Assembly (NCBI GenBank): GCA_030789695.1
Contig: CM061139.1
Location: 102,284,037 to 102,348,036 of the forward strand
Reading direction: 5' to 3'
DNA: 64,000 bases
DNA from: Scilla litardierei
Taxonomy: Eukaryota > Streptophyta > Magnoliopsida > Asparagales > Asparagaceae
Shown here: positions 1 through 46,769 of the stretch, one piece after another
Layout: every line of letters begins with the position of its first letter
How positions within the stretch are numbered: position 1 is the stretch's first letter
The notes under the pieces: model-generated
What the model was told of the DNA's origin: nothing
Seen by the model: the letters and a program-made list of their open reading frames with translations, nothing else
Database searches by the model: none
Program-made: the position numbers and the translations under genes

Positions 1-386
1 CCCGTGGCAGCGAGATAATTGTTGAGAAGGAACATGTTTGGTTATGACATTAACAAGAACGGGACTTCTCGCGGTTCAATCAAGTGCCTGAATCACTGGT
101 TATTGTTGTAGGAATCATTTACTTGGTCATCGCCATATTTTTCAGCTTTTCAACTTCACATCAGACTCGAACTGGCTTGTTGAATATTATGCAGCTTTAG
201 CATCTATCTGCTTCAGGATTCTTCTTGGATTCGTTGATGATGTTCTTGACATCCCATGGCGAGTAAAATTTGGTGTTACCATCGTTTGCTGCCCTTCCCT
301 TATTGATGGCATATGCTGGGCATACTACAATTATCATACCAAAGCCGCTAGTTCAGTATGTCGGGGTAGCCGTTCTGGATTTAGGT
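1..386 (+). pseudogene. ALG7/GPT (DPAGT1-type) gene fragment inside the LTR
   Basis: Broken frames match plant UDP-GlcNAc:dolichyl-phosphate GlcNAc-1-phosphotransferase, the ER membrane enzyme that starts N-glycan assembly. Visible pieces are NMFGYDINKNGT near 30, the catalytic-region motif GFVDDVLDIPWRVK near 229, and VLPSFAALPLLMAYAGHTT followed by IIIPKPLVQYVGVAVLDLG from about 272. There is a stop just after PVAAR and at least three frame changes. The homology ends at a GATTTAG/GTAGAC boundary, which looks like an exon end with its splice donor. Family identity comes from memory of plant ALG7 proteins. The piece is non-functional and part of the LTR. Confidence 0.85.
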
Positions 387-1218
387 AGACTCATCCTCGT
401 TCGATCACCGGAACACCCCGACGACCTCTTCCAGTTACGCTACTCGCAGTCACACACCGATCATCTGCCACTTCGCTGCGCTACCCGCAGTCGCTACGAT
501 CCTGAGGCGATCCCGAGACGACCTTTACTACGCTACCTGCAGTCGGGGACACGAGCACCGCCACTGTTTCCAGACCCGACGCCAGATTAAATGCGCGTTC
601 CTCACACCAGGTTGGTCCCCCTAACTCGTAGCACAACCCACACCGTAACGAAACCGAAAACCTAAACTAAAATTGGACAACTATAACTAAATTTACTTTC
701 AGTACTTGTAAAACATTGCTCATCGAAGAAAGATCGAAAATCGGACAATTTTTTGTACACATAGGATAGTAGTCGATCTAGGTTGAACGAAACACCAAAG
801 AAAATGTGACTTTGACGAATAGGGTAGTCCCGACAATCTAGAAACAAACCCTAAATAGGACTTATTGAAAAACGCGATTTGACACCATCGTCGTGACCCT
901 TTTCAGACGGACTACCGCGGACGCGACGACAGGGCGAGACGCCCCGGACAGACGACACACTCGCCATCACAGGCAAGTGTATCCCACTTGCACTTTCGGC
1001 CGTGCTTAGGCCTTAGTTGGTTAGAACTGATAACTGTGAACAAATAGAACCGGACGTGAAATGATAGCGTCCGGGACGACCCCTGACGGCTCAGACTTGA
1101 CGACGAAGTCTGAGCCTGACAATAACAACTTTTGACATCGTATGGCTATCATGAGTGTGCGTGTGTGTGGACACCCTAGAATAACCCTTCTCGTCTTGTC
1201 ACGTCCCGTCCCGTCTTG

Positions 1219-1395
1219 CACAGCCTGCGGGCAATAAGGCACTCTCCAAGCTAGAGAGAGTGATCCCTTGTACTGATACACAGCCTGCGGGCAATAGGGC
1301 ACTCTCCAAGCTAGAGAGAGTGATCACTTGTACTGATACACAGCCCAGAGGTCAATAGGGCACTCGCCAAGCTAGAGCGAGTGATCTCTTGTCGT
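1219..1395 (+). repeat. 60-bp minisatellite in LARD-A LTR, about three units
   Basis: Units begin with ACACAGCC at 1219, 1279 and 1339. Each contains CACTCTC followed about nine bases later by GAGAGTG, a short hairpin. The 3' LTR copy at 19900-20060 has the same three-unit array, and the SIRE-like element inserted at the edge of one unit. LARD-B carries a different but structurally similar array at the same place in its LTR. Confidence 0.85.
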
Positions 1396-2175
1396 GTTTG
1401 TCTTGTCTTGTCATATTTGGGGTTGGGATTGGGTTGAGCGTGTGCACGGCAAGAGGGTCCGATCCCCCTCGAACCGTAAGGCATGAACCCTTTCGTGTCT
1501 CACTTGTCTTGTCTTGTCTTGTCTTGTCCCGTCACGTCCCGACTTGTCTTGACACCTGTAGGTTAGTCCCGTACTTGGTAGCACACTCTACGACTACTAC
1601 TTGCTACGCCTTACTTTCCTGCTGTGTTACTTCTTTTTGTTAATCATTTATAACCCCAGCATGCTAATCAACCAGAAAATCGTTGTCTAAAAGTTGATAC
1701 ACTTTCAGTAGAGTCTGACCACTTTTTGTAGACTTTACCTGACGTACAGTTTCCTTCTTTGGTGCTGTACGTCATGTGTTGAGCCAGAGTACGTCGACGA
1801 GGCGGACTTGCCAGCAGACGGGGAGCCGGAGGACGTTGATCCGGAGGACGTACCTGATGAGGACCAGACTTAGAGGTCTCTTCTAATGCGGACGTTCAGA
1901 GGTTACTACTTTTAGCTTTTCTCTTTCAGTAGTTGTTGCCATGCTTAGGCTTCCCTCTTTTTTTAGACCTTGTACTCACTGGATATTAATTCTTTATTTT
2001 AATGAATGCAACATCCTTTCTGTACTTCCTGTTGTTTCGAACTTTATAAATGCAAGAACCTGAAACTTTAAAATGGTACCCCTACAGACGCTTATTGGGT
2101 CCAAGCTTCTCAGCTCCTGCCTAAGCGGGACTTGTCACGTTTCGCTTCCGTCTTTTTGGGAAGCGGGGCGTGACA

Positions 2176-4818
2176 GGTTTTAGTGGTGACCCATGCAGGT
2201 CCGCAAAAGTTCGGAACAATAAGAGTACCGCATTCATTTAATGTCCATGTACATGTCTAAATTAGGTTTACCCAGTCTTAGATGGTAGGAAGACTTAGGT
2301 AGACGTCCCAGTGGATAGTCAGACACCTTGGTTAAGATTTAGTCATCCTCGTCCTAGGATACCTTAGTGGCCCGCACTTGACCCTGACCGTGTTAGATTT
2401 CTAGAGCCCTTCTTTTGGTCTTTCGCTCGAGCCCACCGATTTCGGGCCCAGCAGAACTAACCTTGAATCTCTTAGGAACCTTCCCATTAGATCCTGGTTA
2501 CAGTCTAGCTCATTAGGAAATCTTAGTGCCGAGCTCTCCTGATCTTTAGACGACACGATAATTAGAATCCCTGACTTCTAGCGTCTACCTGATCATTACC
2601 CTTTCTGTGATCGACCGTAGAATTCCATCGTAGCTTCGTAAATCATATCCTAAGTGTATCCATCATGCAATCATTTTCTTTCTCCCGATTCACGTAATCG
2701 TTCCTGACGAGTGTCGTTGATCCATCGAGTCTTTTCTTTTGCCAAGTCTGCTTCCTCTAAAAGTATTTTCAAAATTCTTTATTAAGTCCTTCGCTCAGCT
2801 TAATTTCCTTGAAACCCTCTTGGAATTTTCGTTGTTACTATCTCGTACTTATTTTCGAAATGGTATCTCTCATATTTTCAGTTTTAAAACCTTGTTAACA
2901 TTTTGATAATTCAATTTATACTTTTTCTGGAATACAAGATCTATTGCTAACCACTTACCGTACATACTTTTAAAATATTTTCTAAACTAGAGGGAACTCC
3001 AATTATTATTTTTTATTATTGTTATTATATCAGTTCTATGTTCTTCGTGACCACATTTCAAAATCTTTGTGTAAACTTATTTTCATTTGCAAAACAATCG
3101 GTTCTCACCCTACCCTTCTTCCTTCATCTCATTTTTTTCAGAATTGTAATTTTCTACCATATGCTCGTTTTTCTCTACCTAATTTTTTAAGTATAAAAAT
3201 ATAAGATACCATGTTTCACACGTGATCTTTCTTTATTTTGAGCAATATCTTAGTTCCACCCAACCAGTCATCTCCCTATCCTCGCCTTATCCAAACTCGC
3301 ATCTTCCGATCTTGTTTCATTTCGCGTTTGGTTCCGGTCCCTTTCTATCATGTAGACATGGTGCTTGTAGTTGTCAGTGCCATCTAGTTAGTAGTGGGCC
3401 CTTGTTTTTTTTTTGTAATGTCGTCGTGGTGTATGTACATAGGTATAGTGTGTAGACCTGTATAAGTGTTTTACTTTTAGGATCTTGATGTTTGTCACTT
3501 GTGCCCTGTATGCATACTCAATGTGGTCCATGACATACATATGGAGTTGTCTGAATGACGGTATTCATACTTATATGAATAGTGTCATAGCAGGCAGTTC
3601 CTTAGACTTAGTTTTAGTTTTAATGAATGGTTTATCTGGGCTGTATGTGACTGTATCAAAACGTTGTTTTCTTTTAAACCAAATCTTTAAAGTTTTGAGA
3701 CTAGCTCACGAGATCACAAATCACATATCCTCCCTCATCCTTGCCACAACTCTACACGTTTTCCAAATGTTTTGAAATGTGTCCTTGGTCTTAAGTTTCC
3801 CTTCTCTTCTTTTCCTTCTCCCTTAGAAATCTTTTTTTTGTGTGTTTATGGTTGTTATACTATTTGGACTAGCTATTATCGTTATAGGATTTTGTTTGCA
3901 GGTAGGCTTGGGGTGAGATGAGTTTTATTATGGCAATGATTAATTGATCTCGGGAACACAAGGATGATGGATTAGAATATCTTTTGGATGAAAAGAATGA
4001 GCTGTCCAAGACTTATTTATAATACCGATGTGAGACGGACTCAATGGGAAATTCTGGTCGGATGAAATTATATGCGAGGAGATGATAACTTATCAGACTT
4101 GAGGCTTAGACGGGTGGTAGATAGGAGTAACTGCGGAGTATAGTATAAGTTAGGATGATCATGAGAATGAGTAGAACATTGTAAGCATCAAGACTTGGTT
4201 GTCGAGTTGACGTGAGAAGGCTTTGAGAATGACACGACATGTTGAGATAAATGGATGGTTAAGTAGTCGGACTGAATATTGGTTGTGATTAGTTATAGTG
4301 AGTAGGATAAGATGTGATTTTGATAGTTCAATCTTTTAGTGGATAAATTTATGGGAAGATATGACAAGGAATGTATTGAGGACACGACGATTGTTGATAT
4401 GAGAAAGGTGTTATAAGATAGACAAAGTTTTGTCTTGGATTGGTGATTGACTAGAACATCATTTTAGCGATTGATTACTATTGGGAAGAGATTGAGAAAT
4501 TAAAGATGTTATTAAGGGATGATGTTTAGTGGAGTGGTATGGTATGAAAAGATGATTATTCTTTCATGAGAACTTGGAGTTGGAAATTTGAACAGTAGTG
4601 ATGGGTCTATAGTTAAGTATTAGGAGGTGAGTCTAGTCGTGGCATTGTCCAGTGAAAAGAAGGGTCATGAGGGATTATTTGAGGAACGACGTTGAAGTTA
4701 TAGGGTTAGAGATCATTGTGGGGAAGATGGGAGTTATAGGCTTAAGTATTTATGGATTTTATAATTAGTCTTAGTATGAGTGATTCCGAGGACCGAATCA
4801 TTTCTAAGGTGGGTAGAA
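2176..4818 (+). other. LARD-A interior, non-coding
   Basis: This 2.6 kb stretch is AT-rich and has no frame with gag, protease, polymerase or integrase motifs. Its reverse complement matches the interior of LARD-B (31264-34022), for example around 4740-4818 against 31264-31340, so it is a conserved part of the family. No initiator-Met primer site follows the 5' LTR. TGGTGACCC at 2185 is a possible alternative site but is unproven. The 60-98 codon open frames here have no recognisable content. Confidence 0.75.
4803..4818 (+). other. Polypurine-tract-like run before LARD-A 3' LTR
   Basis: The sequence TCTAAGGTGGGTAGAA lies directly before the TGTAACG start of the 3' LTR. It resembles the plus-strand primer of Tekay/Del gypsy elements and sets the orientation of the element. 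The same sequence, reversed, borders the LARD-B LTR at 31264-31280. Confidence 0.65.
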
Positions 4819-5373
4819 TGTAACGTTCGCATTCCGACCTTATGATTTTTCTGCGTGCACGTGCTTTATCGTGCACGTATTTTATTTTGGCTATTTCTGA
4901 GCTCCGGCATATGCGATGCGATATGTCGTTGCGATCTTTTTGGGGTGTTGAATTTTATAGTAATTTTTGGGAACGTCGTTTCACGGCTCGTTTTCTCGCA
5001 AAACGACTTTGAACGATAAGGGCGTTTTAGTCATTTGACTCAAAACACCGTTTCCAATTTTACGTAAATTCTGGATAGGTGTTACACATGATCAGGCTCC
5101 ATAGATCTGTGCGTCTCGTCTCCACGATCGTCTCGGTATTTTCGGATTATTTTTCTGACGCCTGGATTGCGAGTTATCACCCGGATTAACATCGACCGTC
5201 GATTTTTCCCCAATCAGGTTCAAATTTCGAAATTGTTAGCCAAATCTGGCTAAATCTCTTATTTAAGCTGTTTTAAATATTTCCTAAGCTGTTTCGCTAC
5301 TCTCCCCTAGTCTTACCCCAACCTATACACCCTCTTACCCCATATCTCCCCTCCCTTAACATTAAACCCAGTG

Positions 5374-5382
5374 TTATATAGC
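5374..5382 (+). promoter_or_regulatory. TATA-like box in LARD-A LTR
   Basis: TTATATAGC lies about 555 bp into the LTR, upstream of the GC-rich part and the ALG7 fragment. If used, transcripts would start just downstream and include the captured fragment. LARD-B has a similar AT-rich motif near 30683-30697 (minus strand). No transcript data. Confidence 0.35.
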
Positions 5383-6282
5383 TTTTTACCTATTATTATA
5401 ATAACCCTAATCTTAACCCTAGCTACAAAACCCTAACCCAAATTCTTTTCCCAATCCCGCAGCAACTAGGGCTACTTCCCACCTCAGCCGCACGTTTTAT
5501 CACCTCTCCCAAATATTTCAAAACATCTAGGGTATTTTTGTGCTCAGCCGCCGCAAGCTTAGACTCTCTGAACGATTTTCACCCTCTCCCTTCAGCCTCG
5601 CCGTCGGCACATCCCGCCGCCGTGACTACTGCATCTCCCCTCATAGCTGCACCTCGCTTCTCCCGCCGTCGCTGCGCTAACCGAGAGCACCGCCGCGATT
5701 CTCAGCCGCCCCCGCGAACCCAGCGCCTCGCATGTGCTCCGATCCACGGTGAGGCCCCCACCGTGCTCCGCCACGCCCACGATCCACAGCCACGCGCCTC
5801 CCCTCGCTGATCCACCGCCACGATCCACCACCGCAAACCGCCTTCAGCGCCGTCGCCCCTCTCTTTTGCTCTCCACCCCGCGACAACTCAAAACCCCGTG
5901 ACTCCGACCTCCCCTCTCTTCATCCCGACGACAGCTCGCCGCCTAGCTTACTCCGGTGAGCTCCTCTATAACGATGGCCCTCGCCTCAAGGGCCACCGAC
6001 CTCCCTTGCTTTCCTCCGCCGCTGACCCCGATTCCGGCCACCATCGCTGCCCGCCACCGCAGATTTCTCAGTCGCCCGATCCGCAACCAGTGTCGTCGCC
6101 TTGTCCTCGCCCGCTAACCCGAATCCTGACTCGACGCCAACTTACCGATGTTCCCACCGTTGACGGTCACTCGAAACACGCGGCTAATTCTCAGGCCACC
6201 TCCCAGATTTCCGGCGAGATTCAATCCCGGGTCCGAAATCCGCTTCAGATCCGGATCCGCCGCTCGCATCCTCGAAGCTAGG

Positions 6283-6812
6283 GTTCATTCTGCCCTTCTT
6301 GGCTCTCTTGTTCTCCCTTTCTTTTATCTGGTCTTCTGGTATTATGAGATTGATGAAGATCTGCGGCGATCAATCTCTATCAATGCGGCTGTGAGCCTCG
6401 CCGGTTTCGTCACGACCGTCTGATTGATCCCCGTGGCAGCGAGATAATTGTTGAGAAGGAACATGTTTGGTTATGACGTTAACAAGAACGGGACTTCTCG
6501 CGGTTCAATCAAGTGCCTGAATCACTGGGTATTGTTGTAGGAATTATCTACGTGGTCATCGCCATATTTTCAGCTTTTCAACTTCACATCAGACTCGAAC
6601 TGGCTTGTTGAATATTATGCAGCTTTAGCATCTATCTGCTTCATGATTCTGCTTGGATTCGTTGATGATGTTCTTGACATCCCATGGCGAGTAAAATGTG
6701 GTGTTACCATCGTTTGCTGCCCTTCCCTTATTGATGGCATATGCTGGGCATACTACAATTATCATACCAAAGCCGCTAGTTCAGTATGTCGGGGTAGCCG
6801 TTCTGGATTTAG
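6283..6812 (+). pseudogene. ALG7/GPT gene fragment (longer copy) inside LARD-A 3' LTR
   Basis: About 175 codons of the ALG7/GPT N-terminal half. The first membrane segment reads FFYLVFWYYEIDEDLRRSI (6319 onward). After a stop at 6421 comes LIPVAAR, another stop, then NMFGYDVNKNGT. After a frame change come PESLGIVVGI and, in another frame, FTSDSNWLVEY, LASICFMILLGFVDDVLD and PWRVK, the metal-binding Asp region. After a further shift comes VLPSFAALPLLMAYAGHTT. Most of the breaks are shared with the 5' LTR copy, so capture and decay preceded the last transposition. Homology stops at an exon-like end followed by GT. No intron is visible within the piece. LARD-B lacks it. Confidence 0.88.
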
Positions 6813-7660
6813 GTAGACTCATCCTCGTTCGATCACCGGAACACCCCGACGACCTCTTCCAGCTACGCTACTCGCAGTCACGCACCGATCATCAGCCACT
6901 TCGCTGCGCTACCTGCAGCCGTTACGATCCTGAGTCGATCCCGAGATGACCTTTACTGTGCTACCCGCAGTCGGGGACACGAGCACCGCCACCGTTTCCA
7001 GACCCGATAACAGATTAAATGCGCGTTCCTCACACCAGGTTGGTCCTCCTAACTCGTAGCACAATCCACACCGTAACGAAACCGAAAACCTAAACTAAAA
7101 TTGGACAACTATAACTAAATTTACTTTCAGTACTTGTAAAACGCTGCTCACCGTAGAAAGATCGACAATCGGACAATTTTCTGTACACATAGGATAGTAG
7201 TCGATCTAGGTTGAACGAAACACCAAAGAGATTGTGACTTTGACGAATAGGGTAGTCCCGACAATCTAGAAACAAACCCTAAATAGGACTTATTGAAAGA
7301 CGTGATTTGACACCGTCGTCGTGACCCTTTTCAGACGGACTACCGCGGACGCGACGACAGGGCGAGACGCCCCGGACAGACGACACACTCGCCATCACAG
7401 GCAAGTGTATCCCACTTGCACTTTCGGCCATGCTTAGGCCTTAGTTGGTTAGAACTGATAACTGTGAACAAATAGAACCGGACGTGAAATGATAGCGTCC
7501 GGGACAACCCCTGACGACTCAGACTTGATGACGAAGTCTGAGCCTGACAATAACAACTTTTGACATCGTAGAGCTATCATGTGTGTGCGTGTGTGTGGAC
7601 ACCCTAGAATAACCCTTCCCGTCTTGTCACGTCTCGTCCCGTCTTGCATAGCCTGCGGGC

Positions 7661-7665
7661 AATAG
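7661..7665. repeat. Target site duplication of SIRE-like element (left)
   Basis: AATAG before the LTR at 7666 is repeated as AATAG at 19900-19904 after the right LTR. A 5-bp duplication is normal for copia integrases and shows that the element inserted into LARD-A. Confidence 0.9.
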
Positions 7666-8403
7666 TGTAATGCCCTACGAAGCTACTGCACAAGTAGTAG
7701 AGGGGGGTGAATAGTACTTTAAAATAATTAAGAGGATAATTCCTAATTATCTTGCAATCTCTACCAATAATGCGAAAATGCGGAAATGTAAATATTAGAC
7801 AACAAATAAGAGCAATCGCAAACAAACGATATTACTGGGTTCGGATCCACCCAAGTCTCCCCGACTTGTTCCCGATGATCCTACGTCCCAAACACTCGGA
7901 TCCCCTCCGGATACTAGAGTTAGAAACATCTAACCCTAGAAATGCACTATGAAATACTTGTGAAAAACCTTCACCAAGTCAAATCATACACAAAGTAATT
8001 GTGACTCCCACAACCCGTGATCACAAATAATCTCTCACAACCGAGAGACAAACACTTACAATATGAAAGTAAATGAAATAGAAATTCTTACCGACAAAAT
8101 CCTATGCCTTGAGTAAAACTTACGATTTAGGGCAAAACGGATTTTGGGGAAGATGAAGAGGCACCAAACCCTAGCTCCAAGATGTAGATCAGCGATGGAG
8201 AGCTATGAGGTTGTTGGTGACCTAGAATCAAGCACAAGGCTTGGAAGGCTCACAATCAATGAATCTCTCTTTTGAAATAAGAGTGAGAGAGAGATTCTTG
8301 AATGGAAATGAATGAGCTTTGAATGAGATTGAATGCTTTCTCTTTGATCTCTAAACTTCACTTAATATCAGCCTTGAGTACAATGAATGCAGCACTCCAA
8401 GTA

Positions 8404-8412
8404 TATATATAG
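8404..8412 (-). promoter_or_regulatory. TATA-like box in SIRE-like LTR
   Basis: The minus strand reads TATATATAC about 1 kb into the LTR and about 65 bp downstream of the repeat module. The same motif is kept in the other LTR near 18888-18896. Its position fits the U3/R border of the element promoter. Confidence 0.5.
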
Positions 8413-8469
8413 GTAAGAGAAGAGAGAGAGAGAAAATCGTGGCATTTAATGCTCCAATGGCTCTATTCT

Positions 8470-9010
8470 GAACCCAACTAGTCGGTCAAAGAAGGTTGAC
8501 TGACCGACTAGTTCATCAACTAGTCGGTCGGTCAAACAGCATGAACCGACTAATGGTAGAACAGCCAAGAAGAGAAGTTCAGACTGAAGAGAACTAGTCG
8601 GTCAAAGAAGAGTTGCTGACCGACTAGTTTCATAACTAGTCGTCGGTGACTCAACTGAGACCGACTAAGAGATAAAACAAATAGTCTGAGCACAAATTGG
8701 TTTAGTCGGTCCAAGAACAAATGTTGACCGACTAGTTCATCAACTAGTCGGTCGACAAAAGTTCTTTGACCGACTAACGATAAACAGTAAGTTGGCATGT
8801 ACAGTATAAGCTCAACTAGTGGGTCTAAGAAGAAACACTGACCGACTAGTTCACAAACTAGTTGGTCGGTGAACCTTCTTTGACCGACTAACTGTAAACA
8901 GTAAGTGAGCTAGAATTGAAGGAGGCAAACTAGTCGGTCCAAGAAGCTTTTCCGACCGACTAGATCACCATCTAGTCGGTTGGTTCTTCTTCTTGAACCA
9001 ACTAACATGC
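8470..9010 (-). repeat. TCGGTC/GACCGA repeat module in SIRE-like U3 region
   Basis: Five to six units of roughly 80-100 bp. Each has AGTCGGTC, a short spacer, GACCGACTAG, a few bases, CTAGTCGGTCGG and a final ACCGACTAA, several followed by TAAACAGTAA. The units can form nested hairpins. The same module is in the other LTR (18967-19500), a shorter version lies at 12288-12475, and a close relative is in the Tekay-like LTR at 44110-44530. Its place upstream of the TATA-like box suggests an enhancer role, which is an inference. Confidence 0.88.
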
Positions 9011-9407
9011 ACAAGAAGTCGCGAATCGAAGCGCGAAGCTTCGGGAAAGTTCGTATGGACTTCTACTAAGATCCTATCTCTAAGATATGAGCGTTATGAA
9101 GATTTAAAACGTATGAGCTACTCAAGGCTTAACAATCTACGAAGGAAGCTAAAAGACTATAAATAAAACTTGACGAACCGTCTTTAAAAGCTTCAATCGA
9201 ATCTTCATGACTTCAATAATGGTCCTTGAGCTTCAACGAAGCTTTAGGCATACGATCACGTGCTTTGAGAAGTCTTGAGACGTCGCTATAGATGTTCTTA
9301 TGAATTTGGCGACGATCTCCATAACTGTGCTCACACAGAGTTAGTTCACGATATATTTATGTTTGTTCATCATCCAAAACCAAATCCGGGGAGTCCAATA
9401 CTCAACA

Positions 9408-9425
9408 TTCTCCCCCTTTTTGGTG
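9408..9425 (-). other. Polypurine tract next to SIRE-like 3' LTR
   Basis: The minus strand reads CCAAAAAGGGGGAGAA directly before the LTR start TGTTGAG. It would prime plus-strand DNA synthesis. Similar GGGGGAG runs recur at 9481-9490, 9611-9621 and 9695-9712, a feature known from SIRE elements. Confidence 0.85.
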
Positions 9426-10352
9426 ATGACAAACCAACATAAATAATAATCAAAAATAATGATTCAAATGTAATTTACTTACTCCCCCTGCATTGATGAC
9501 ACGTTAGTTCCAAAATATATATTAATCATACGCATCAAGCAGACGAGTAAAGTATAAAAATGTGAATCGATTGTTGAAATATCGGATTTGAAAATCCATT
9601 TATATATCTTAACTCCCCCTGAATCTAACATATCAAATTAGATTCTTGGAAAAATGCTCTAAATTATCATTTAGCTCATCGTCATTATTATATCTCTCCC
9701 CCTTTGGCATTAGCAAAAAGAGAGGGAGGAGATCAACGACAACAACAATGGCTTCAAATAAAAGCACGGGAGTCGTAGAATACGACCACGGTCCAAATGA
9801 CACCAAAGTAAAATACGTAATGAATCAAAGCGTGTCAATGAGACCAAAGTCGAAAAACGATAAAATAAAATCATCAAAAATCAAATCAATTTTACGGATT
9901 GAGTTATGGAATATACTCTCCAATATCAACATTCTTGGTTAATTTAGTGCATGAAAAACAATTCTAGGTTTCCATAGAAATAATTTCTATTTAACCAAGT
10001 TATTATCGTCGAGCGACGAAATCAAACATCAGAGACATATAAAAAATATAATGTGCACAAGAGAATGAAATGTCAACATCGATGTATATATATATGTGTG
10101 AAACATAAGTACATCAAAATCATACATCGCCGACATACATAAACGATCCTCAGATCGAAGCACAAAATACAACATCACTATTACACAACATATATCAGAG
10201 TATCACAAAACATACAAAAGTCTCAAAACATCATATGAGATACATCAAGATACATAAAAATATCAAAAATCATAACCATCCACACTATCCTACCCAACTC
10301 TCTCAAACTAGATCTATCATCCAAAGTGCACTAAGAGAGTCCTCAAAGAAGC
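9426..10352 (-). other. Spacer between env-like ORF and 3' LTR, with extra polypurine runs
   Basis: AT-rich, with no supported gene. On the minus strand it holds three more GGGGGAG tracts (9695-9712, 9611-9621, 9481-9490). The 98-codon plus-strand open frame at 9646-9942 has no recognisable domain and lies antisense in the element, so I do not call it. Confidence 0.6.
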
Positions 10353-11954: not shown

Positions 11955-12287
11955 AAGCGCGACGAGACACGTGCAATCAACCGAGAAATCTACGCTCAAA
12001 CCCTAGCCGAAACCCTAAGAAGAGAAATCGATTGGAAATCGAGAAACCCTAACCCTAGAAGCTGGAGAGAGGGTTCACCTAGGTCGGAAGGAGGAGAGGG
12101 TTGATCGGCGGCCGGAGTAGGTCGGAAAGATGGCCGGAAATCGACGGAGGAGGGAGTGGAAGTCAAAGGGGCACGGGGGTTTTTGAGCTGGAGAGGAGAA
12201 AACGATCGACTAGAATGAAAAAGAGTCGGTTCGGGGAGCTTTTAGTCGATTGGAAGTCGAAAAGACGCAACTGTCCCCGTTGCAATT

Positions 12288-12475
12288 AGTCGGTCACCGT
12301 TCAAGCACTGACCGACTAGATGATGATCTAGTCGGTCGGTCAATGAGCTTGAACCAACTAGTTGCAAACAGTAACTGAAGCCAAAAATACTGAGCAGAAT
12401 TAGTCGGTCTGCGTTCATTTACTGACCGACTAGATCGCAATCTAGTCGGTCGGTCAATGAACATGAACCGACTAA
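12288..12475 (-). repeat. Short TCGGTC/GACCGA module upstream of the env-like ORF
   Basis: Two units of the same TAGTCGGTC...GACCGACTAG pattern that fills the U3 region of this element's LTRs. It lies in the non-coding gap between RNase H (ending at 12726) and the env-like start (11954), about 330 bp upstream of that start. No TATA-like box was seen between module and ORF. Confidence 0.8.
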
Positions 12476-14156: not shown

Positions 14157-14296
14157 CGGAACAAGCTCCCAAACCTCATTCCTTTCGAATTAAATGAGTT
14201 CCTCTTCCATGACGAGGATTCAAGCGCTATCTTCGCATGCCTCATTAATATTCTTTGGTTCAATCGAGGAGGCAAAGGCACAATGAGCGAAGTAGT

Positions 14297-18129: not shown

Positions 18130-18137
18130 AGCTAGGT

Positions 18138-19899: not shown

Positions 19900-19904
19900 A
19901 ATAG

Positions 19905-20635
19905 GGCACTCTCTAAGCTAGATAGAGTGATCCCTTGTACTGATACACAGCCTACGGGCAATAGGGCACTCTCCAAGCTAGAGAGAGTGATCCCTTGTAC
20001 TGATACACAGCCCAGAGGGCAATAGGGCACTCGCCAAGCTAGAGCAAGTGATCCCTTGTCGTGTTTGTCTTGTCTTGTCATACTTGGGGTTGGGGTTGGG
20101 TTAAGCGTGCGCACGGATCGAGGGTCTGATCCCCCTCGAACCGTAAGGCGTGAACCCTTTAGTGTCTCACTTGTCTTGTCGTGTCTTGTCCCATCACGTC
20201 CCGACTTGTCTTGACACCTGTAGGTTAGTCCAGTAGTTGGTAGCACACGCTACGACTACTACTTGCTATGCCTTACTTTCCTTATGCGTTACTTCTTTTT
20301 GTTACTCAGTTATAACCCCAGCATGCTAATCAACCAGAAAATCGTTGTCTAAAAGTTGATACACTTTCAGTAGAGTCTGACCACTTTTTGTAGACTTTAC
20401 CTGACGTACAGTTTCCTTCTTTGGTGCTGTACGTCATGTGTTGAGCCAGAGTACGTCGACGAGGCGGACTTGCCAGCAGACAGAGAGCCGGAGGACGTTG
20501 ATCCGAAGGACGTACCTGACGAGGACCAGACTTAGAGGTCTCTTCTAACACGGACGTTCAGAGGTTACTACTTTTAGCTTTTCTCTTTCGGTAGTTGTTG
20601 CCATGCTTAGGCTTCCCTCTTTTTTTAGACCTTGT
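19905..20635 (+). repeat. LARD-A 3' LTR, continuation after SIRE-like insertion
   Basis: Matches the 5' LTR from about 1240 to 1974, including the 60-bp minisatellite and the CTTGTC-rich part. The match stops at CTTGTAC (about 20636), where the partner LTR continues with TCACTGGATATT but this copy changes to the Athila-like LTR. The missing LTR end was lost in a deletion or recombination. Confidence 0.85.
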
Positions 20636-21662
20636 ACAATATATCCCCCTCACCAAAAAGCCCACACAAAACCACGGATCCGGATGCAACTTACGTTTCG
20701 GGCCCACGGCGACTCGGTCCGAGTAGGTAGCTGCTCGGTCGACTCGTCAGAAAATATCAATCCGCTGTCCAAAACGTCGCTCTGCCTGCTTGGACCGAGT
20801 AGGGTCTGCTTGGTCGAGTAGGTGGCTGCTCGGTCGAGTAGGCGGTAGGTTGGAGCTCTCCCCCAAAATCACGCTCTGCCTGCTCGGACCGAGTAGGGTC
20901 TGCTCAGTCAAGTTGTCACTCTGCTCGGTCGAGTAGGTGGATGCTCGGTCGAGTAGTGGTTAAAAATAGATTTCAGCAGCATTTATCACTTTGCTCGGTC
21001 GAGCAGGTGGTTGCTCGGTCGAGTAGGTGGTTGCTCGGTCGAGTAGGAGGTTGCTCGATCGAGTAGGAGGTTGCTCGGTCGAGTAGGAGGCCAAAAACAG
21101 ATTTCAGCACTGTAGCATCAGCTTGCAGAAATTCCCCAGGGCTCATCCGACCTCCGATTGGCGCGTTCGTGGTGGCGTTGGAACCATCTGGAAGTCTACT
21201 ATCTGAGTAAAATATCAGAAATATACTAAAAAATCCCAGGTGATAAAAATTTTGGAAATAGTGCACGGCTGTCCTGTTTCCAGTACTTTGGGTCGCTCGA
21301 TTCCTTCGTCGTATCATAGTGTCGCATCATAGTGTGATCGAGCGACCTGGAATCCATGAGTCATGGTATTATAGAACCATGCTTTCTTCATTCTCCTCTT
21401 CTTCACTCCTTCTTTCTTGCCCCTTCCTTGCTCCCCGGAAGCTTTAAGTCACCGAACGCGGTGCCTCAGGAGTTCCGGTGTCGAAGCACGCGCTTTCTCC
21501 TCCAATATACTCCAAATCGCTCGATATTCCCTAAAATGCAATCAAACACTCTTAAAGTACAATGGTTCCAATCATGAGCATAAAAGCGTATGAAATATGT
21601 AATTAAGCAATCATTTTGACGTGTAATCATATAAATAAAATGTGGAATATAATGACACATCA
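20636..21662 (-). repeat. Athila-like 3' LTR, truncated at its TATA-like box
   Basis: Read on the minus strand it starts TGATGTGTCATTATATTCC at 21662 and ends abruptly at GGGGGATATATTGT (about 20637), a TATA-like motif. The other half, present in the right LTR (about 24310-25407), is gone. It contains the CTCGGTCGAG array at 20700-21095. Confidence 0.82.
20700..21095. repeat. CTCGGTCGAGTAGG array in Athila-like LTR
   Basis: Many copies of GCTCGGTCGAGTAGGTGG-like units of 18-20 bp, partly in tandem (20992-21085), mixed with inverted forms such as CTCGGACCGAGTAGGG. The right LTR has a shorter version at 25480-25840, with fewer tandem units. The array lies immediately upstream (minus strand) of the TATA-like GATATATTGT. 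Its TCGGTC core is shared with the SIRE- and Tekay-like modules, but the surrounding unit differs. Confidence 0.85.
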
Positions 21663-27761: not shown

Positions 27762-30700
27762 TGTCACACCCCGCTTCCCAAAATGGACGGAAGCGAAACG
27801 TGACGAGGCCCGCTTAGGCCAGAGCTTTAGAAGCTCGGACCCAATAAGCGTCTGTAGAGGTACCATTATAAAAATTTTTCAGTTTCTTGCATTTATAAAG
27901 TTTAGGAACAACAAAAGTACGGAAAGGAAATTTGCATTCATTTACACGGAGAAATAATATCCAACTGGTACAAAGTCTAAAAGAAGCCTAAGCATGGCAA
28001 CACAAGTTTAAAGACAAACCGAAAGGTAGTACCCTCGGGAAGTGGCGAATAAAAGACCTCAAGGTCCGGTCTTCGTCAGGCACGAACTCTGGATCAACGT
28101 CCTCGGCTCCTCATACTCCAGTGAGTCTGCCTCGTCCACGAACTCTGGCTGAGCACCTGACGTACAGCACCCAAGAAAAAGGAACTGTACGTCAGGTAAA
28201 GTCTACAAGAAGGGTTAGACTTTACTGCAAGTGTATCAACTTTTGGACAACGTTTTACTGGTTGATTAGCATGATGGGGTTACAACAAGTACAAGAGAAG
28301 TAACGTAGCAGGAAAGTAAAACGTAGCAGGCAGTAGTCGTAGCGTGTGCTACCGACTACGGGGACTAACCTACAGGTGTCAAGACAAGTCAGGACGTGGC
28401 GGGACAAGACAGGACAAACAGGACGGGACAAGACAAGACAAGTGTGACACGAAGGGTTCACACCTTACGGTTCGAGGGGGATCAGACCCTCTTGCCGTGC
28501 ACACGCTCAACCCTACCCCAACCCAGGAACTCAGGACAAGAAGTACAGGGATCATTTCCGCTAGGGAAACATCCGAAACGCCCGAAGGCTTTTTGTGTAA
28601 CAGGGATCACTTCCGCAAGGAAAGCATCCGAAACGCCCGAGGGCTTTTTGGTAACAGGGATCACTTCCGCGGAGGGAAGCATCCGAAACGCCCGAAGGCT
28701 TTTTGTATCACGGGGATCACTTCCGCTAGGAAAGCATCCGAAACGCCCGAAGGCTTTTTGTATCACGGGGATCACTTCCGCGGAGGGAAGCATCCGAAAC
28801 GCCCGAAGGCTTTTTGTGTAACAGGACACGACATGACAAGTGTAGGGAAAGTTATTCTAGGGTGTCCACACGCACGCACACACAAGAGAGTCCTATGTTG
28901 TCAGCAGTTCATTGTTGTCAGGCTCAGACTTCGTCGTCAAGTCGGAGCCGTCACGGTCGTCCCGGACGCTATCATTTCACGCCCGGTTCTCAACACACAC
29001 AATCTAACAGTTCTACAAACTAGAACTAAGCACAGTCAAATCGCAAGTGGGTACACTTGCCTGGAATGGCGAGTGCGTCGTCCGTCCGGAGCGTCCCGTC
29101 CAGTCGTCACGTCCGCGGTAGTCCGTCTGAAATAGTGTCACGGTGACGATGTCAGGACGCGTTTTTCAATAATCCTATTTAGGTTCATTTCTAGGTTGTC
29201 GGGGCTACCCTAATTGTCAAAGTCACAATTTGATGTTTTATCAGCCTAGATCGACCACTACCCTATATGCACAGAAAGTTTGTCCGATGGTCTATTTCTA
29301 CAGTGAGCAGCGTTTTACTGGCGCAGAAAATAAATTTAGTTACAGTTGTCCGATTTTTAGTTAAGGTTCAGTTCGCTACAGTGTGGGTTTCGCTACGAGT
29401 TAAGGGGGACCAACCTGGTGTGAGGAAACGCGCATATAATCTGGCGTCGGGTCTGAAAACGGTGGCGGCGCTCGTGTCCCCGACTGCGGGTAGCGCAGTG
29501 GAGGTCGTCTCGGGATCATAACGGCTGCGGGTAGCACAGCCGAGATGTCACGGCTACGGGACGTCGTCGCGTGGCATCTCGGCTATGGGTAGCGTAGCCG
29601 GGAGCGTTCTGGTACCGAATTGGAAGGGCGGTAATAAGCGGTGATGGCGAACAGTGAAGGCGGGCCCGATAGTGGTCCGCAAGCGGGTACGGTCAGTCTG
29701 TCGGCAAGAGCCGGGATCAACAGAACAACCGTGCCTCGGGAAGACGTCGGAACAAGGTAGTCGCGACGGCTCGAAGGAACAACAGCAGACCTCGGGCTGT
29801 TGCTCTCGCTGATCTTCACGTGGAGCGGCCACCAGCGGTCAGGGCTCTATGCGGTGGCCATAGGCGGCACAGTGGTGACGGGAGAGCGCCGGGAGGGCGT
29901 TGCGTGACCAGCGGGGTCATGGCGACAAGGGAACCGCGAGAGCGGCGCTCGGGGTCGCTGTACGAGGATCGGGGCAGCGGCTGAGCGCGGGGTGCCAGGT
30001 GGTGCAAGGGCAAGTGTGGATCGGAGACGGGTCTGCGGCGGCGACGACTTCGCTCGCCGGAAAGCTTGAGAGATGGGAGGTGCCGGTCGCTCGGCTCAGA
30101 GTCGGGGTTCAGCGCTTTGAACGGAGGGGGGGCGACGACTGTGTCGACTGGGCTCGTCAGAGCGCCGGCGGCACGGGCAACTCGAGGGCAGAGGGTGGCG
30201 ATGGGGTCGTGAGGTGGCCGTGGATCACGGCAGCGGCCTCGGGCTCGGAGACGCCGGAGCGGCCTCGGATCGCAGCGGCGGTGCTCTGCGGAGTGGCGGC
30301 GGGATCATGCGACTGAGAGGGGAGGGGAGCGGCGCGGGATGCTCAGGCGGCCACGGCAGAGATTGCTGCGGTGGCGAGGATCGCGGCGGGGCGAGCAGCG
30401 AGGGGAGGCAGAAAAAATGGCGGCGGGGAGATCTGTACGGCGGCGGAGCCGGGGAAGCTGCGGCGGCCGAGAGTAGCGCGCGCGGCGGTGCGCGCATTGT
30501 GAAGAGGGCGGCGCTGTGATAGGCGAGGGGCGAAGGGCTCCGGTGGCGCGGATGGGGATCGGCGGCCGTGGAGAGAGATAGGAGAGGGAGAGAGATAGGG
30601 ATTAGGAGGGGTTGAGATGGCGACGGCTGGGAGAGCCCTAGGGCTGCTGCGGGAATTGGAAAGGGTTAGGGTTTATTATTTGGGGTTATATAATAAGAAT

Positions 30701-31263
30701 AATTTGATATATATCTATGAGATTTATAGCTAGAAGGGGATTGACAAGGAGGTGAAGGGTGTACAAGTATGGGTGAATCTAGGGGAGACTAGAGAGGAAG
30801 ATTAGGAAGGGTTTAAAACGATTTAGGAGAGAGATTTAGCCAGATTTGGCTAACAAATTTCGAAATTGACCAGGGCAAATCAACGGTCCAGATTTATCTG
30901 GACGATAACTCTCAAACCGGGCGTCAGAAAAAATAATCCGAAAATACCGGGGTGATCGTGGAGACGAGACGCACAGATCTACGGAGCCCGATCATGCATA
31001 ACGCCTACCAAGAATTTACGTAAAATTGGAAACGGCGTTTCGAGTCAGATGATTAAAACGCCCCTATCTTTCAAAGTCGTTTCACGCGAAAACAAGCAGT
31101 GAAACGTCGTTCCCAGAAATTACAATAAAATCCAATGCCCCAAAACGATCGCAACGGCACGTCACATCGTTAAATTCGGAATCCAGAAATAATCAAATAA
31201 AGCACGTGCACGACAAAGCACGTGCACGCAGAAAATACAAACGGTCGGAAAGCGGCCGTTACA
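27762..31263 (-). repeat. LARD-B 3' LTR
   Basis: Contains a five-unit minisatellite at 28549-28826, a GC-rich part (29440-30560) and an AT-rich TATA-like stretch near 30683-30697. Open frames such as 28344-29135, 29900-30316 and 30214-30519 are translations of the minisatellite and the GC-rich part. They show no known domain and are not called as genes. Confidence 0.9.
28549..28826 (-). repeat. Minisatellite with five units in LARD-B 3' LTR
   Basis: Units of about 54-56 bp with GGGATCACTTCC, GGAAGCATCCGAAACGCCC and GAAGGCTTTTTG. Each can form a CTTCC...GGAAG hairpin and a GCCCGAAGGC stem. The partner LTR has six units at 34819-35150. Confidence 0.92.
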
Positions 31264-34022
31264 TTCTACCCACCTTAGAAATGATTCCGTCCTCGGAATC
31301 ACTCACGCTAAGACTAATCATAAAATCTATAAATACCTAAGCCTATAATTCACATCCTCCACACAATGGTCTCTAGTCCTATACTTTTAACATCGTTCCT
31401 CAAATAATCCGTCATAATCCTTCTTTTCACTGGATAATGCCACGACTAATCTCACATTCTAACACTTAACTCTAGACCCATCACTGCTGATCAAATTTTC
31501 AACTCCAAGTCCTCACAAAAGAATAATAATTATCTTCTCATACCATACCTACTCTGGCAAACATCACCGCTCAATAATATCTTCTAAATTCCTCGATATC
31601 TTCCCAATATAAATCAATCTCCGAAATTAGATTCTAGTCAACCGCCAATCTAAAAACAAAAAAAAAACTTTGTCCAATCCTTTAATACCTTCACCAATCA
31701 ACAATCGTCGTGTCTTCATTACATTCTTGTCATATCTTCCCATAAATTTATCCACCAATTAATTTGGACTATCAAGATCACATCTCCTCCTAGTTATTAT
31801 AATTATTTTCAGCCAATATTAAATCCGTCAACCTAACCATCTATTATTTTTTCTCAACACGTCGTGTTACTCCCAATGTCTTCTCACGTCAACTCAACAA
31901 TCAAGTCTCGATGCTAATAAAAACTCTACTCAATCTTATGATCACTCTAACTCCTACCATACTCTATAGCCATCCCTATCTACCATTCGTCTAAGCCTCA
32001 AATCTGATAAGTTATCATCTCCTCGCACATATAATTTCATCCGACCAAAGTTTCCCATTGAGTCCGTCACACTCCGGTTTTATAAATAAGTCTTGGACAG
32101 TCCATTCTTTTCATCCAAAAGATATTCTAATCCATCATCCTTGTGTTCCCAAAATCGATTAATCATTGCCATAGTAAAACTCATTTCACTCCAAGCCTAC
32201 CAGCAAACAAAATCCTATAACAATAATAGTCAGGCCCAATTAATATAACAATCATAAACACGAAAATTTTTGTTTAAGGAAGAAGGAAGAGAAGAGAAAG
32301 AGAGACTTAAGGTCAAAGAAATATTTTAAAATATTTGAGAAAAAAAACGTGTGACGTTGAGGTAATGGATGAGGGAGGTTAAGTGATTTGTGATCTCGTG
32401 AGCTAGTTTTAAAACTTTAAAGATTTTGTTTAAAGAAAACAAGCTTTGGTACAGTCACATACAGCCAAGATAAACCATTCATTAAAACTAAGACTAAGTC
32501 TAAGTATCTGCCTGCAATGACGCCATTCATATAAGTATGAATACCGTCATTCAGACAACTCCCATCATACCATGGTTGACACTGAGTACACATTCATGAC
32601 ACAGGAGACAAACATCAGGATCCTAAAGATGACACACTCCTACAGGTCTACACACTCTACCTATACTCAGGCACTGCAACGTCATCACCTACCAAAGGGC
32701 CTACTCCTAAACTGGAGATAGCATGGACAACTACAAGGACTAATGTCTAGATAATAGAAAGAAAAGAAAACTAGATCAAAAGCGAAACGAAACAAGGTCA
32801 GAAAGAACGAGTTCAAACAAGGCGAGGTAAGGAGATGGCTGGTTGGATGGAACAAAAATATCCCTCAGAATAATTAGAGGGATGAACGTGGAATTACGTG
32901 CAAAATATGGTGTCACAAACTTCTATACTTATAAAAATGTGTAGGAAAAATGTGAGCAGCTGGTAAAATTTTTTTTTTTACGATTTTAAAAAAAGTCAGG
33001 TGAAGGAAATAAAAGCAGGGTGAGGTAGCGGTTGTTTTGTAAATGAAAACCATTTTTTTTAAACAAGAATTCTTGAAGTATGAGTCATAGATATATTTAC
33101 GAAAAGAAATTTAAAGTCCCCTTTGGTTTAGAAAGTATTCTAGAGTACGTACATAAGTGGTTAGAAATTTTGATAGTTTAGAAAAGTGATATATATATAT
33201 TGGATTATAGAATTTGATAACAAGGTTTAAAACTGAAACACGAAAGATGCCGATTTGAAAATAGGTACGAGATAGTAACATAATTTTACGACCAGGGAGG
33301 TTTCAAGATTAGTGAAAGAATTTAACCCAACTGAAAAAACAAGAAATTTTTTTTTATTAGATAATATAGGGGTTTTCAAAGAAGTTAAGCTGAGCGAAAG
33401 ACTTAATAATAAATTTCGAAAATACTTTTAGAGGAAACAGAATTGGTCAAGGAAGGGATTCGGAGGATCGACGATAATCATCAGGGAACGATCACGTGAA
33501 TCGAGAGACAGGAAAATGATCGCTTGAAGAATATGTGTATGTTACGAACCGTGAAGAGCTACGATGGAACATTACGGTCGATAACACGAAAATGGTAATG
33601 ATCAGGAAGACGCTAGAAGTCAGGGATTCTATTTTTTTTTTCCGGTTGCCTAAGCTCAGGAGAGCTCGGCACCGAAATTTCCTAATGAGCTAGACTGTAA
33701 CTAGGATTCCAATGGGAATGTTCCTAAGAGAATCCAGGTTAGTTCTACTGGGTTCGAAGTCGATGGACCCGAGCGAACGACTAAAAGAAGGGCTCTGGAA
33801 ATCTAACACGGTCAGAGTCAAGTGGGCTACTAAGGTATTCTAGGACGGGGATGACTAAATCTTAACCAAGGCGTCAGACTATCAAACCGGGACGTCTATC
33901 TAAGTCTCCCTACTATCTAGGTCTGGGAAACCTAATTTAGACTTGTACATGGATATTAAATGAATGCAGTACTCTTATTGTTCCGAACTTTTGCATGACC
34001 TGCATGGGCCACCACTAAAACC
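31264..34022 (-). other. LARD-B interior, non-coding
   Basis: 2.76 kb, reverse complement of the LARD-A interior in many stretches. No frame longer than about 60 codons has any domain. The left end (31264-31345) carries the conserved purine tract on the minus strand. The right end, next to the LTR at 34023, is AACC after TGCATGGGCCACCACTAAA and gives no initiator-Met primer site. Confidence 0.8.
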
Positions 34023-37000
34023 TGTCACACCCCGCTTCCCAAAATGGACGGAAGCGAAACGTGACGAGGCCCGCTTAGGCTAGAGCTTTAGAAGCTCGGA
34101 CCCAATAAGCGTCTGTAGAGGTACCATTATAAAAATTTTTCAGGTTCTTGCATTTATAAAGGTTAGGAACAACAAAAGTACGGAAAGGAAATTTGCATTC
34201 ATTTACACGGAGAAATAATATCCAACTGGTACAAAGTCTAAAAGAAGCCTAAGCATGGCAACACAAGTTTAAAGACAAACCGAAAGGTAGTACCCTCGGG
34301 AAGTGGCGACTAAAAGACCTCAAGGTCCGGTCTTCGTCAGGCACGAACTCTGGATCAACGTCCTCGGCTCCTCGTACTCCAGTGAGTCTGCCTCGTCCAC
34401 GAACTCTGGCTGAGCACCTGACGTACAGCACCCAAGAAAAAGGAACTGTACGTCAGGTAAAGTCTACAAGAAGGGTTAGACTTTACTGCAAGTGTATCAA
34501 CTTTTGGTTCTTTTACACAGCGTTTTACTGGTTGATTAGCATGCTGGGGTTACAACAAGTACAAGAGAAGTAACGTAGCAGGAAAGTAAAACGTAGCAGG
34601 CAGTAGTCGTAGCGTGTGCTACCGACTACGGGGACTAACCTACAGGTGTCAAGACAAGTCAGGACGTGGCGGGACAAGACAGGACAAACAGGACGGGACA
34701 AGACAAGACAAGTGTGACACGAAGGGTTCACGCCTTACGGTTCGAGGGGGATCAGACCCTCTTGCCGTGCGCACGCTCAACCCTACCCCAACCCAGGAAC
34801 TCAGGACAAGAAGTACAGGGATCATTTCCGCTAGGGAAACATCCGAAACGCCCGAAGGCTTTTTGTGTAACAGGGATCACTTCTGCAAGGAAAGCATCCG
34901 AAACGCCCGAGGGCTTTTTGGTAACAGGGATCACTTCCGCGGAGGGAAGCATCCGAAACGCCCGAAGGCTTTTTGTATCACGGGGATCACTTCCGCTAGG
35001 AAAGCATCCGAAACGCCCGAAGGCTTTTTGTATCACGGGGATCACTTCCGCGGAGGGAAGCATCCGAAACGCCCGAAGGCTTTTTGTATCACGGGGATCA
35101 CTTCCGCGGAGGAAAGCATCCGAAACGCCCGAAGGCTTTTTGTGTAACAGGACACGACATGACAAGTGTAGGGAAAGTTATTCTAGGGTGTCCACACGCA
35201 CGCACACACAAGAGAGTCCTATGTTGTCAGCAGTTCATTGTTGTCAGGCTCAGACTTCGTCGTCAAGTCGGAGCCGTCACGGTCGTCCCGGACGCTATCA
35301 TTTCACGCCCGGTTCTCAACACACACAATCTAACAGTTCTACAAACTAGAACTAAGCACAGTCAAATCGCAAGTGGGTACACTTGCCTGGAATGGCGAGT
35401 GCGTCGTCCGTCCGGAGCGTCCCGTCCAGTCGTCGCGTCCGCGGTAGTCCGTCTGAAATAGTGTCACGGTGACGATGTCAGGACGCGTTTTTCAATAATC
35501 CTATTTAGGTTCATTTCTAGGTTGTCGGGGCTACACTAATTGTCAAAGTCACAATTTGATGTTTTATCAGCCTAGATCGACCACTACCCTATATGCACAG
35601 AAAGTTTGTCTGATGGTCGATTTCTACAGTGAGCAGCGTTTTACTGGCGCAGAAAATAAATTTAGTTACAGTTGTCCAATTTTTAGTTAAGGTTCAGTTC
35701 GCTACAGTGTGGGTTTCGCTACGAGTTAAGGGGGACCAACCTGGTGTGAGAAAACGCGCATATAATCTGGCGTCGGGTCTGAAAACGGTGGCGGCGCTCG
35801 TGTCCCCGACTGCGGGTAGCGCAGTGGAGGTCGTCTCGGGATCATAACGGCTGCGGGTAGCACAGCCGAGATGTCACGGCTACGGGACGTCGTCGCGTGG
35901 CATCTCGGCTACGGGTACGGGTAGCGTAGCCGGGAGCGTTCTGGTACCGAATTGGAAGGGCGGTAATAAGCGGTGATGGCGAACAGTGAAGGCGGGCCCG
36001 ATAGTGGTCCGCAAGCGGGTACGGTCAGTCTGTCGGCAAGAGCCGGGGTCAACAGAACAACCGTGCCTTGGGAAGACGTCGGAACAAGGTAGTCGCGACG
36101 GCTCGAAGGAACAACAGCAGACCTCGGGCTGTTGCTCTCGCTGATCTTCACGTGGAGCGGCCACCAGCGGTCAGGGCTCTATGCGGTGGCCATAGGCGGC
36201 ACAGTGGTGACGGGAGAGCGCCGGGAGGGCGTTGCGTGACCAGCGGGGTCATGGCGACAGGGGAACCGCGAGAGCGACGCTCGGGGTCGCTGTACGGGGA
36301 TCGGGGCAGCGGCTGAGCGTGGGGTGCCAGGTGGTGCAAGGGCAAGTGTGGATCGGAGACGGGTCTGCGGCGGCGACGACTTCGCTCGCCGGAAAGCTTG
36401 AGAGATGGGAGGTGCCGGTCGCTCGGCTCAGAGTCGGGGTTCAGCGCTTTGAACGGAGGGGGGGCGACGACTATGTCGACTGGGCTCATCGGAGCGCCGG
36501 CGGCGCGGGCAACTCGAGGGCAGAGGGTGGCGATGGGGTCGTGAGGTGGCCGTGGATCACGGCGGCGGCCTCGGGCTCGGAGACGCCGGAGCGGCCTCGG
36601 ATCGCAGCGGCGGTGCTCTGCGGAGTGGCGGCGGGATCATGCGACTGAGAGGGGAGGGGAGCGGCGCGGGATGTGCTCAGGCGGCCACGGCAGAGATTGT
36701 TGCGGTGGCGAGGATCGCGGCGGGCGAGCGGATCGCGGCGGGCGAGCAGCGAGGGGAGGCGGAAAAAATGGCGGCGGGGAGATCTGTACGGCGGCGGAGC
36801 CGAGGAAGCTGCGGCGGCCGAGAGTAGCGCGCGCGGCGGTGCGCGCATTGTGAAGAGGGCAGCGCTGTGATAGGCGAGGGGCGCAGGGCTCCGGTGGCGC
36901 GGATGGGGATCGGCGGACGTGGAGAGAGATAGGAGAGGGAGAGAGATAGGGATTAGGAGGGGTTGAGATGGCGACGGCTGGGACAGCCCTAGGGCTGCTG

Positions 37001-37613
37001 CGGGAATTGGAAAGGGTTAGGGTTTATTATTTGGGGTTATATAATAAGAATAATTTGATATATATCTATGAGATTTATAGCTAGAAGGGGATTGACAAGG
37101 AGGTGAAGGGTGTACAAGTATGGGTGAATCTAGGGGAGACTAGAGAGGACGATTAGGAAGGGTTTAAAACGATTTAGGAGAGAGATTTAGCCAGATTTGG
37201 CTAACAAATTTCGAAATTGACCAGGGCAAATCAACGGTCCAGATTTATCCGGACGATAACTCTCAAACCGGGCGTCGGAAAAATAATCCGAAAATACCGG
37301 GGTGATCGTGGAGACGAGACGCACAGATCTACGGAGCCCGATCGTGCATAACGCCTACCAAGAATTTACGTAAAATTGGAAACGGCGTTTCGAGTCAGAT
37401 GATTAAAACGCCCCTATCTTTCAAAGTCGTTTCACGCGAAAACAAGCAGTGAAACGTCGTTCCCAGAAATTACAATAAAATCCAATGCCCCAAAACGATC
37501 GCAACGGCACGTCACATCGTTAAATTCGGAATCCAGAAATAATCAAATAAAGCACGTGCACGACAAAGCACGTGCACGCAGAAAATACAAACGGTCGGAA
37601 AGCGGCCGTTACA
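34023..37613 (-). repeat. LARD-B 5' LTR
   Basis: Direct repeat of 27762-31263, about 90 bp longer. The difference is mainly a sixth minisatellite unit, an indel near 34507 and an indel in the GC-rich region near 36720. It starts TGTCACACC and ends GTTACA, followed by the CTCCC target duplication (37614-37618). Confidence 0.92.
34819..35150 (-). repeat. Minisatellite with six units in LARD-B 5' LTR
   Basis: Same unit as at 28549-28826 with one additional copy, the last (about 35094-35150), carrying a CGGAGGAAAGC variant. The copy-number change separates two LTRs that are otherwise almost the same. Confidence 0.92.
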
Positions 37614-46765: not shown

Positions 46766-46769
46766 GCCC

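Follow-up and report, generated by a model that had tools for sequence, protein, structure and literature searches.

An intron-free, decayed piece of ALG7 inside both long terminal repeats of a non-coding retrotransposon of Scilla litardierei

By sequence comparison, both long terminal repeats (LTRs) of LARD-A, a non-coding LTR retrotransposon on the plus strand, carry a sense-strand, decayed copy of about codons 1-217 of ALG7, the sugar-transfer gene for UDP-GlcNAc:dolichyl-P GlcNAc-1-P transferase. We consider it probable that this sequence stems from the 5′ half of a processed host ALG7 transcript without introns, and that it was captured by template switching during copying of the LTR leader. 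Within the window, the whole stretch of 64,000 nucleotides that was analysed, this was the only ALG7-bearing LARD element (n = 1).

LARDs are large non-autonomous LTR elements with kilobase LTRs, a long interior without coding capacity and a tRNA primer-binding site. The parts of LARD-A, and of a relative in the same window that lacks the piece, LARD-B, were as follows.

1..2175, plus strand: LARD-A 5′ LTR; the start lies beyond the window edge, and the end, TGACA, is followed by GGTTTTAGTGGTGACCCATG
2176..4818, plus strand: LARD-A non-coding interior, 2643 nt, with four open reading frames (ORFs) of at least 55 aa (55-96 aa)
4819..7664, plus strand: first part of the LARD-A 3′ LTR, starting with TGTAACG and broken by a nested Copia element
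19900..20637, plus strand: continuation of the LARD-A 3′ LTR past the nested Copia element, located by blastn
27762..37613, minus strand: LARD-B, with LTRs at 37613-34023 (3591 nt) and 31263-27762 (3502 nt) and the target duplication GGGAG (5 bp)

The LARD-A LTR starts with TGTAACG (4819) and ends with TGACA (2175), and LARD-B has identical termini. Paired direct LTRs bounded by TG...CA, together with the target duplication seen for LARD-B, identify these as LTR retrotransposons, and the LARD-A interior together with the LARD-B LTRs displays the kilobase LTRs and long interior without coding capacity of a LARD. None of the four LARD-A interior ORFs (55-96 aa) reached the Pfam cut-off, and an ORF of 150 aa was absent from the interiors of both LARD-A and LARD-B. 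The LARD-B LTR pair was identical at 3461 of 3500 sites (98.9%), as measured with the ends a few bases off. By blastn, a counterpart of 1976-2175 of the LARD-A 5′ LTR was found within the window only in LARD-B. Tandem units of about 60 nt (CAGCCTGCGGGCAATA...) were present in the LARD-A LTR at 1219-1392 and 19900-20059, and a different tandem unit (ACAAAAAGCCTTCGGGCGTTTCGGATGCTT...) was present near the corresponding place in the LARD-B LTR.

Comparison of the LARD-A and LARD-B LTRs by blastn yielded two firm alignment blocks, at LARD-A 4822-5473 and 6903-7642, and none over the ALG7 piece. Weak likeness extended through the GC-rich leader to about 5870, where it stood above shuffles in 100-nt steps with an order that was not uniformly kept; a longer leader alignment to 6076 scored 128 versus at most 100 in 60 shuffles, and weak likeness resumed right of about 6862. 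Alignment of LARD-A 6156-6812 with the LARD-B LTR middle scored 35, within the range of 60 shuffles, which reached up to 43, and beyond the LARD-A LTRs the ALG7 piece had no further blastn match in the window at E 1e-8. These results bear out the view of the first-pass annotation that the LARD-B LTRs are without the piece. Because the LTR middles of the two elements are too diverged, the exact capture junctions are not placeable. Of the eight ORFs listed for the LARD-B LTR middle, the four that lie on the strand of the element had no Pfam match at E 0.1, and they thus gave no sign of another captured gene there.

The ALG7 piece was located in the two LARD-A LTRs at the following positions.

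6160..6814, plus strand: captured ALG7 coding sequence in the 3′ LTR; firm from 6233, possible from 6160-6203; 3′ end at 6812-6814
1..384, plus strand: ALG7 piece in the 5′ LTR, the first part of which lies beyond the window

A 177-residue reading of the piece, with five X at lesions, served as the query for protein comparison. Search of the PDB returned chains named UDP-GlcNAc--dolichyl-phosphate GlcNAc-phosphotransferase that matched over query residues 26-177 (five distinct sequences; best E 7.2e-24, a value that rules out chance similarity to ALG7); the solved transferase is one that we take to be human DPAGT1. The reading also matched Pfam family PF00953 at 27.3 bits, barely over the cut-off of 27, and 683 of 2447 candidates from a large protein database at E 0.001. 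Among the best 120 of these 683, the top matches were from Iris (E 3.2e-83) and Asparagus (E 4.4e-83), with identity over aligned residues without X of 154/189 for Iris ALG7 and 150/189 for Asparagus. In a tree of 19 rows, from which Spirodela, Wolffia, Colocasia and Tetracentron were left out of 22 reference proteins, the LTR copy grouped with Asparagus with moderate support (83/80, the mark for strong support being 95 and 80), which makes an Asparagales-like monocot a likely host. Homology to ALG7/DPAGT1, which had been read from the letters of the DNA, was thus confirmed by PDB, Pfam and plant ALG7 proteins. An intact catalytic ALG7 protein was not found: the piece covers about half of the protein and contains two stops and at least four frameshifts.

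The 5′ extent was set by frameshift-aware alignment with seven reference proteins, all of which ended at 6814. The match began at 6233 with Dendrobium, 6203 with Iris, 6189 with both Canna and Musa, 6180 with Asparagus, 6174 with Typha and 6160 with Dioscorea; firm homology starts at 6233 (PKSASDPDPPLASSKLGF). When the segment before the DPDPPLA motif was aligned alone, it beat all 60 shuffles with one of four references, Asparagus (37 versus a maximum of 33), and did not do so with Iris (28 versus 30), Typha (29 versus 35) or Canna (20 versus 31). It is possible that the piece begins near the ALG7 initiation codon. Of the span first given for the piece, 6283-6812, the 3′ end therefore stands (6812-6814) and the start does not, as homology is firm already from 6233 and possible from 6160-6203.

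The copies in the two LTRs (1-384 and 6430-6812) agreed at 375 of 383 sites (97.9%), with three transitions and five transversions. Lesions common to both LTRs in the overlap were a stop (PVAAR*) and frameshifts at KVPES, ILFQ and RV|K; at ILFQ the LTRs differed by one base of a T run. Since the lesions are shared, the ALG7 piece was already decaying before this LARD-A insertion, as an old passenger. With LTR sequence on both sides of the piece, inside the terminal TGTAACG at 4819 and TGACA at 2175, and with the stop and frameshifts in common, the earlier claims that the piece lies in sense within the LTR itself, and that the same piece with shared breaks has moved with the element, were both sustained. 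A native ALG7 gene at this locus is ruled out by the presence of the piece in both LTRs and by the LTR sequence that flanks it on both sides.

Beyond the piece, the LTR sequence as far as the nested Copia element (387-1236 versus 6813-7664) differed at 38 of 850 sites. CG/CHG-type transitions made up 23 of these 38 differences beside the piece versus 1 of 8 within it. The excess beside the piece is methylation-like, the pattern expected of a methylated, silenced element, and the lower divergence of the ALG7 piece may come at least partly from fewer methylatable sites.

One further feature bears on whether the piece could be transcribed.

5375..5381, plus strand: TATA-like box TATATAG, in the block alignable with LARD-B

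The LTR transcript is predicted to start shortly downstream of this box. The ALG7 piece occupies LTR positions ~1342-1994, ~785 nt downstream of the box, and probably lies in sense in the transcribed leader (R or U5), a placement taken from the TATA-like box alone. The sense orientation of the piece, and the TATA-like box that precedes it in a block alignable with LARD-B, would suit a piece that has been retained for an effect, either through LTR small RNAs directed at host ALG7 or through a likeness to an essential gene that shields the element from silencing. Both the silencing of donors by small RNAs of captured genes and the shielding idea are described in the available part of a review (PMC13317346). 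However, stops and frameshifts of this kind belong to a sequence that is not maintained for its protein, and the CG/CHG-type differences beside the piece are as in a methylated, silenced element; such retention is therefore very unlikely in our estimate. The evidence shows the ALG7 piece, as read from its sequence, to be a decayed passenger, and silencing of host ALG7 by it would be possible in principle.

The structure of the donor was examined at the exon junctions of ALG7, at which two features of the 3′ LTR are relevant.

6505..6712, plus strand: intron-free stretch over three ALG7 exon junctions (KV|PES, SN|WLVEY, RV|K)
6812..6818, plus strand: exon border GATTTAG|GTAGAC, where the homology ends on its 3′ side

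A search with a 91-residue frameshifted LTR ORF yielded 32 short ORFs, several of which were near duplicates, so that they do not represent 32 independent genes. Judged by reading, each of the 32 was part of an ALG7 gene, in some cases with the sequence carrying on in a different frame, and no LTR-borne ALG7 copy was among them. The ORFs were mapped on Iris ALG7 and recounted at junction motifs, which placed intron marks on the Iris protein at 117/118, 146/147, 177/178 and 217/218 (V|PES, N|WLVEY, RV|K and LDLG|W). At V|PES, P0134 and P0150, the two ORFs reaching this position in frame, enter at PESLG/PEALG from unrelated residues. At N|WLVEY, unrelated residues precede WLVEY in 29 of the 32 ORFs, three of which start two residues (MQ) ahead, and the remaining three (P0123, P0125 and P0150) cross the junction uninterrupted. 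The ALG7 sequence stops at RV|K in 28 of the 32, seven of which are ORFs that simply end there; three (P0123, P0135 and P0151) continue across it, and P0150 is frameshifted earlier. The ORFs that cross N|W or RV|K may come from genes in which these introns are absent, or else be models that were annotated or already spliced. Of the eight ORFs reaching LDLG|W (LNLG in P0123), seven leave or end at this border, and P0151 continues. The database ORF P0123 is joined across N|W and V|K and has unrelated residues after LNLG, a pattern that matches the LTR piece.

The LTR copy is contiguous at the first three of these junctions, and the donor molecule was thus most likely an RNA from which three introns had been spliced, their positions being taken from the genes of other plants. 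Intron-bearing genomic capture is ruled out by this contiguity. The first-pass annotation had noted an exon-like 3′ end followed by GT, which is correct (GATTTAG|GTAGAC at the LDLG|W border), and had proposed from it a capture of genomic DNA or unspliced RNA, which is not supported for genomic DNA or for wholly unspliced RNA. The GT directly after the exon-like end would fit such a donor, and the few ORFs that cross the junctions mean that some plants may be without these introns; with three intron positions cleanly spliced, however, we regard genomic ALG7 DNA or wholly unspliced RNA as very unlikely. A random breakpoint would be unlikely to coincide with an exon border, and together with the GT this end suggests either an RNA with the next intron retained or a junction made by splicing.

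In the mechanism that we favour, ALG7 RNA spliced at no fewer than the three tested junctions would have been packaged together with LARD-A RNA. Reverse transcriptase copying the LTR leader would then have switched onto the ALG7 RNA and back, and normal strand transfers would have placed the ALG7 sequence in both LTRs of the daughter element, strand transfer being the established step of LTR-element replication that duplicates sequence into both LTRs. The exon border and GT suggest that the donor RNA may still have contained the next intron, or that the junction was splice-made. The lesions common to both LTRs show that the piece was already broken at the time of the present insertion, so that the chimera was by then an older passenger in decay. 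The available part of PMC13317346 describes template switching from one packaged RNA to another, unrelated one.

The exon border with its GT would also be accounted for by read-through, in which a LARD lay in sense in the ALG7 intron that follows the exon ending LDLG; a transcript from the ALG7 promoter, spliced upstream but not past the LARD, would have joined ALG7 exons to LTR sequence, and this chimeric RNA would have recombined into the LTR. The joined N|W and V|K junctions and unrelated residues of P0123 are in line with this reading, as is the LTR likeness to LARD-B right of the border. With the alignment anchored at 6902, the likeness of 6813-6902 beat 495 of 500 shuffles (5/500 equalled it) and that of 6826-6902 beat all 500. 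However, this likeness came mainly from right of 6862, as 6813-6862 was equalled by 197/500 shuffles and 6826-6862 by 62/500, and free local alignment of 6813-6910 scored 30 versus a shuffle mean of 30.2. The likeness right of the 6812 border cannot choose between a retained intron and a splice-made junction. We consider read-through unlikely. Its fuller form, in which a partly spliced ALG7 transcript ran from its own promoter into an intronic LARD and was recombined into the LTR, so that each LTR exposes the ALG7 5′ half in its transcribed leader, is to be viewed as distinctly doubtful. If it were true and the whole subfamily had been amplified, the LTR leader would serve as a cassette of captured exons, with RNAs that could affect host ALG7.

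The intron-free sequence could also be that of a processed ALG7 pseudogene made by a LINE, which inserted into a LARD LTR and was later propagated by transposition of the element. LINE copies are usually 5′-cut and end in poly(A), whereas here the 5′ half is the part retained, and its 3′ end falls on an exon border within the gene. No poly(A) follows 6814, and comparison of 6077-6170 with 6806-6870 gave no direct repeat of more than 6 nt, so that neither the 3′ poly(A) nor the flanking duplication of a LINE-type processed pseudogene was present. This origin is highly improbable in our judgement.

Gene capture in the interior of plant LTR elements is well known. In maize, 425 gene-capturing LTR elements from at least 189 captures are reported (PMC2774510), and Bs1 carries only exons of its captured gene (PMC4717578). 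Like LARD-A, Bs1 and other gene-capturing plant LTR elements hold a host coding-gene fragment; the LARD-A piece is in both LTRs, whereas the placement of the maize fragments relative to LTRs is not stated in the available passages of PMC2774510. Soybean and Medicago gene-carrying TRIMs (30 elements in seven subfamilies) resemble LARD-A in being non-coding with intron-free exon pieces, but the homology is reported, in the part of PMC4717578 available, in internal regions rather than in LTRs. The same source describes the Cassandra TRIM, whose LTRs contain 5S rRNA-like sequence. Like LARD-A, it is a non-coding element with sequence resembling a host gene in its LTR; that insert is 5S RNA-like, whereas that of LARD-A derives from a gene that codes for protein and has introns. 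Comparison of the window with Rfam gave no family at its gathering score. In BARE-2, Wis-2 sequence is present in a BARE-1 LTR via abnormal template switching, according to the available part of PMC13317346. This is an LTR remodelled by template switching, as proposed for LARD-A, but the donor was another retrotransposon and not a host gene.

No description of a protein-coding exon piece inside an LTR was found in titles, abstract starts and passages of open-licence literature (including PMC3726574, PMC7264820, PMC2773423 and PMC3544724; supplementary tables excluded), a weak negative. An exact search of GTDB genomes and IMG/VR for a 30-base LTR string gave no match, in keeping with the plant origin of the element. 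The protein-coding, intron-free capture inside an LTR looks like a joining of features known separately, with the placement unusual. An LTR-borne gene piece is doubled by every transposition and would persist in every solo LTR, and LTR capture could multiply more efficiently than interior capture. The absence of introns points to capture by way of RNA, and the position of the 3′ end on an exon border hints at the RNA involved. For annotation, a decayed ALG7 match in such genomes may be an LTR and not a gene.

The remainder of the window contained the nested Copia element and further gag-like ORFs.

7665-19899, minus strand: nested Copia element, interrupting the LARD-A 3′ LTR
16027-18183: gag-like ORF of the nested Copia element, with a zinc knuckle (PF14223, PF00098)
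12726-14156: reverse-transcriptase-like ORF of the nested Copia element, matching named Copia/TNT 1-94 pol
14297-15499: integrase-like ORF of the nested Copia element, judged by eye
39039-39719: gag-like ORF of Copia type, at 26 bits barely under the cut-off of 27
46640-47350, 53943-54560 and 60061-61530: gag-like ORFs of PF03732 type

In a protein search with an ORF of the nested Copia element, identity was at most 69% among the best 120 of 8000 candidates scored. This element also has an extra 548-aa ORF downstream of pol, with a match to PF20167, 'putative plant transposon protein'. Direct repeats at 8475-9022 and 18965-19514 resemble the LTRs of the nested Copia element and contain units about 114 nt apart on ACTAGTCGGTCGGT-like palindromic motifs, and two further units of the ACTAGTCGGTCGGT type were observed at 12283-12492.
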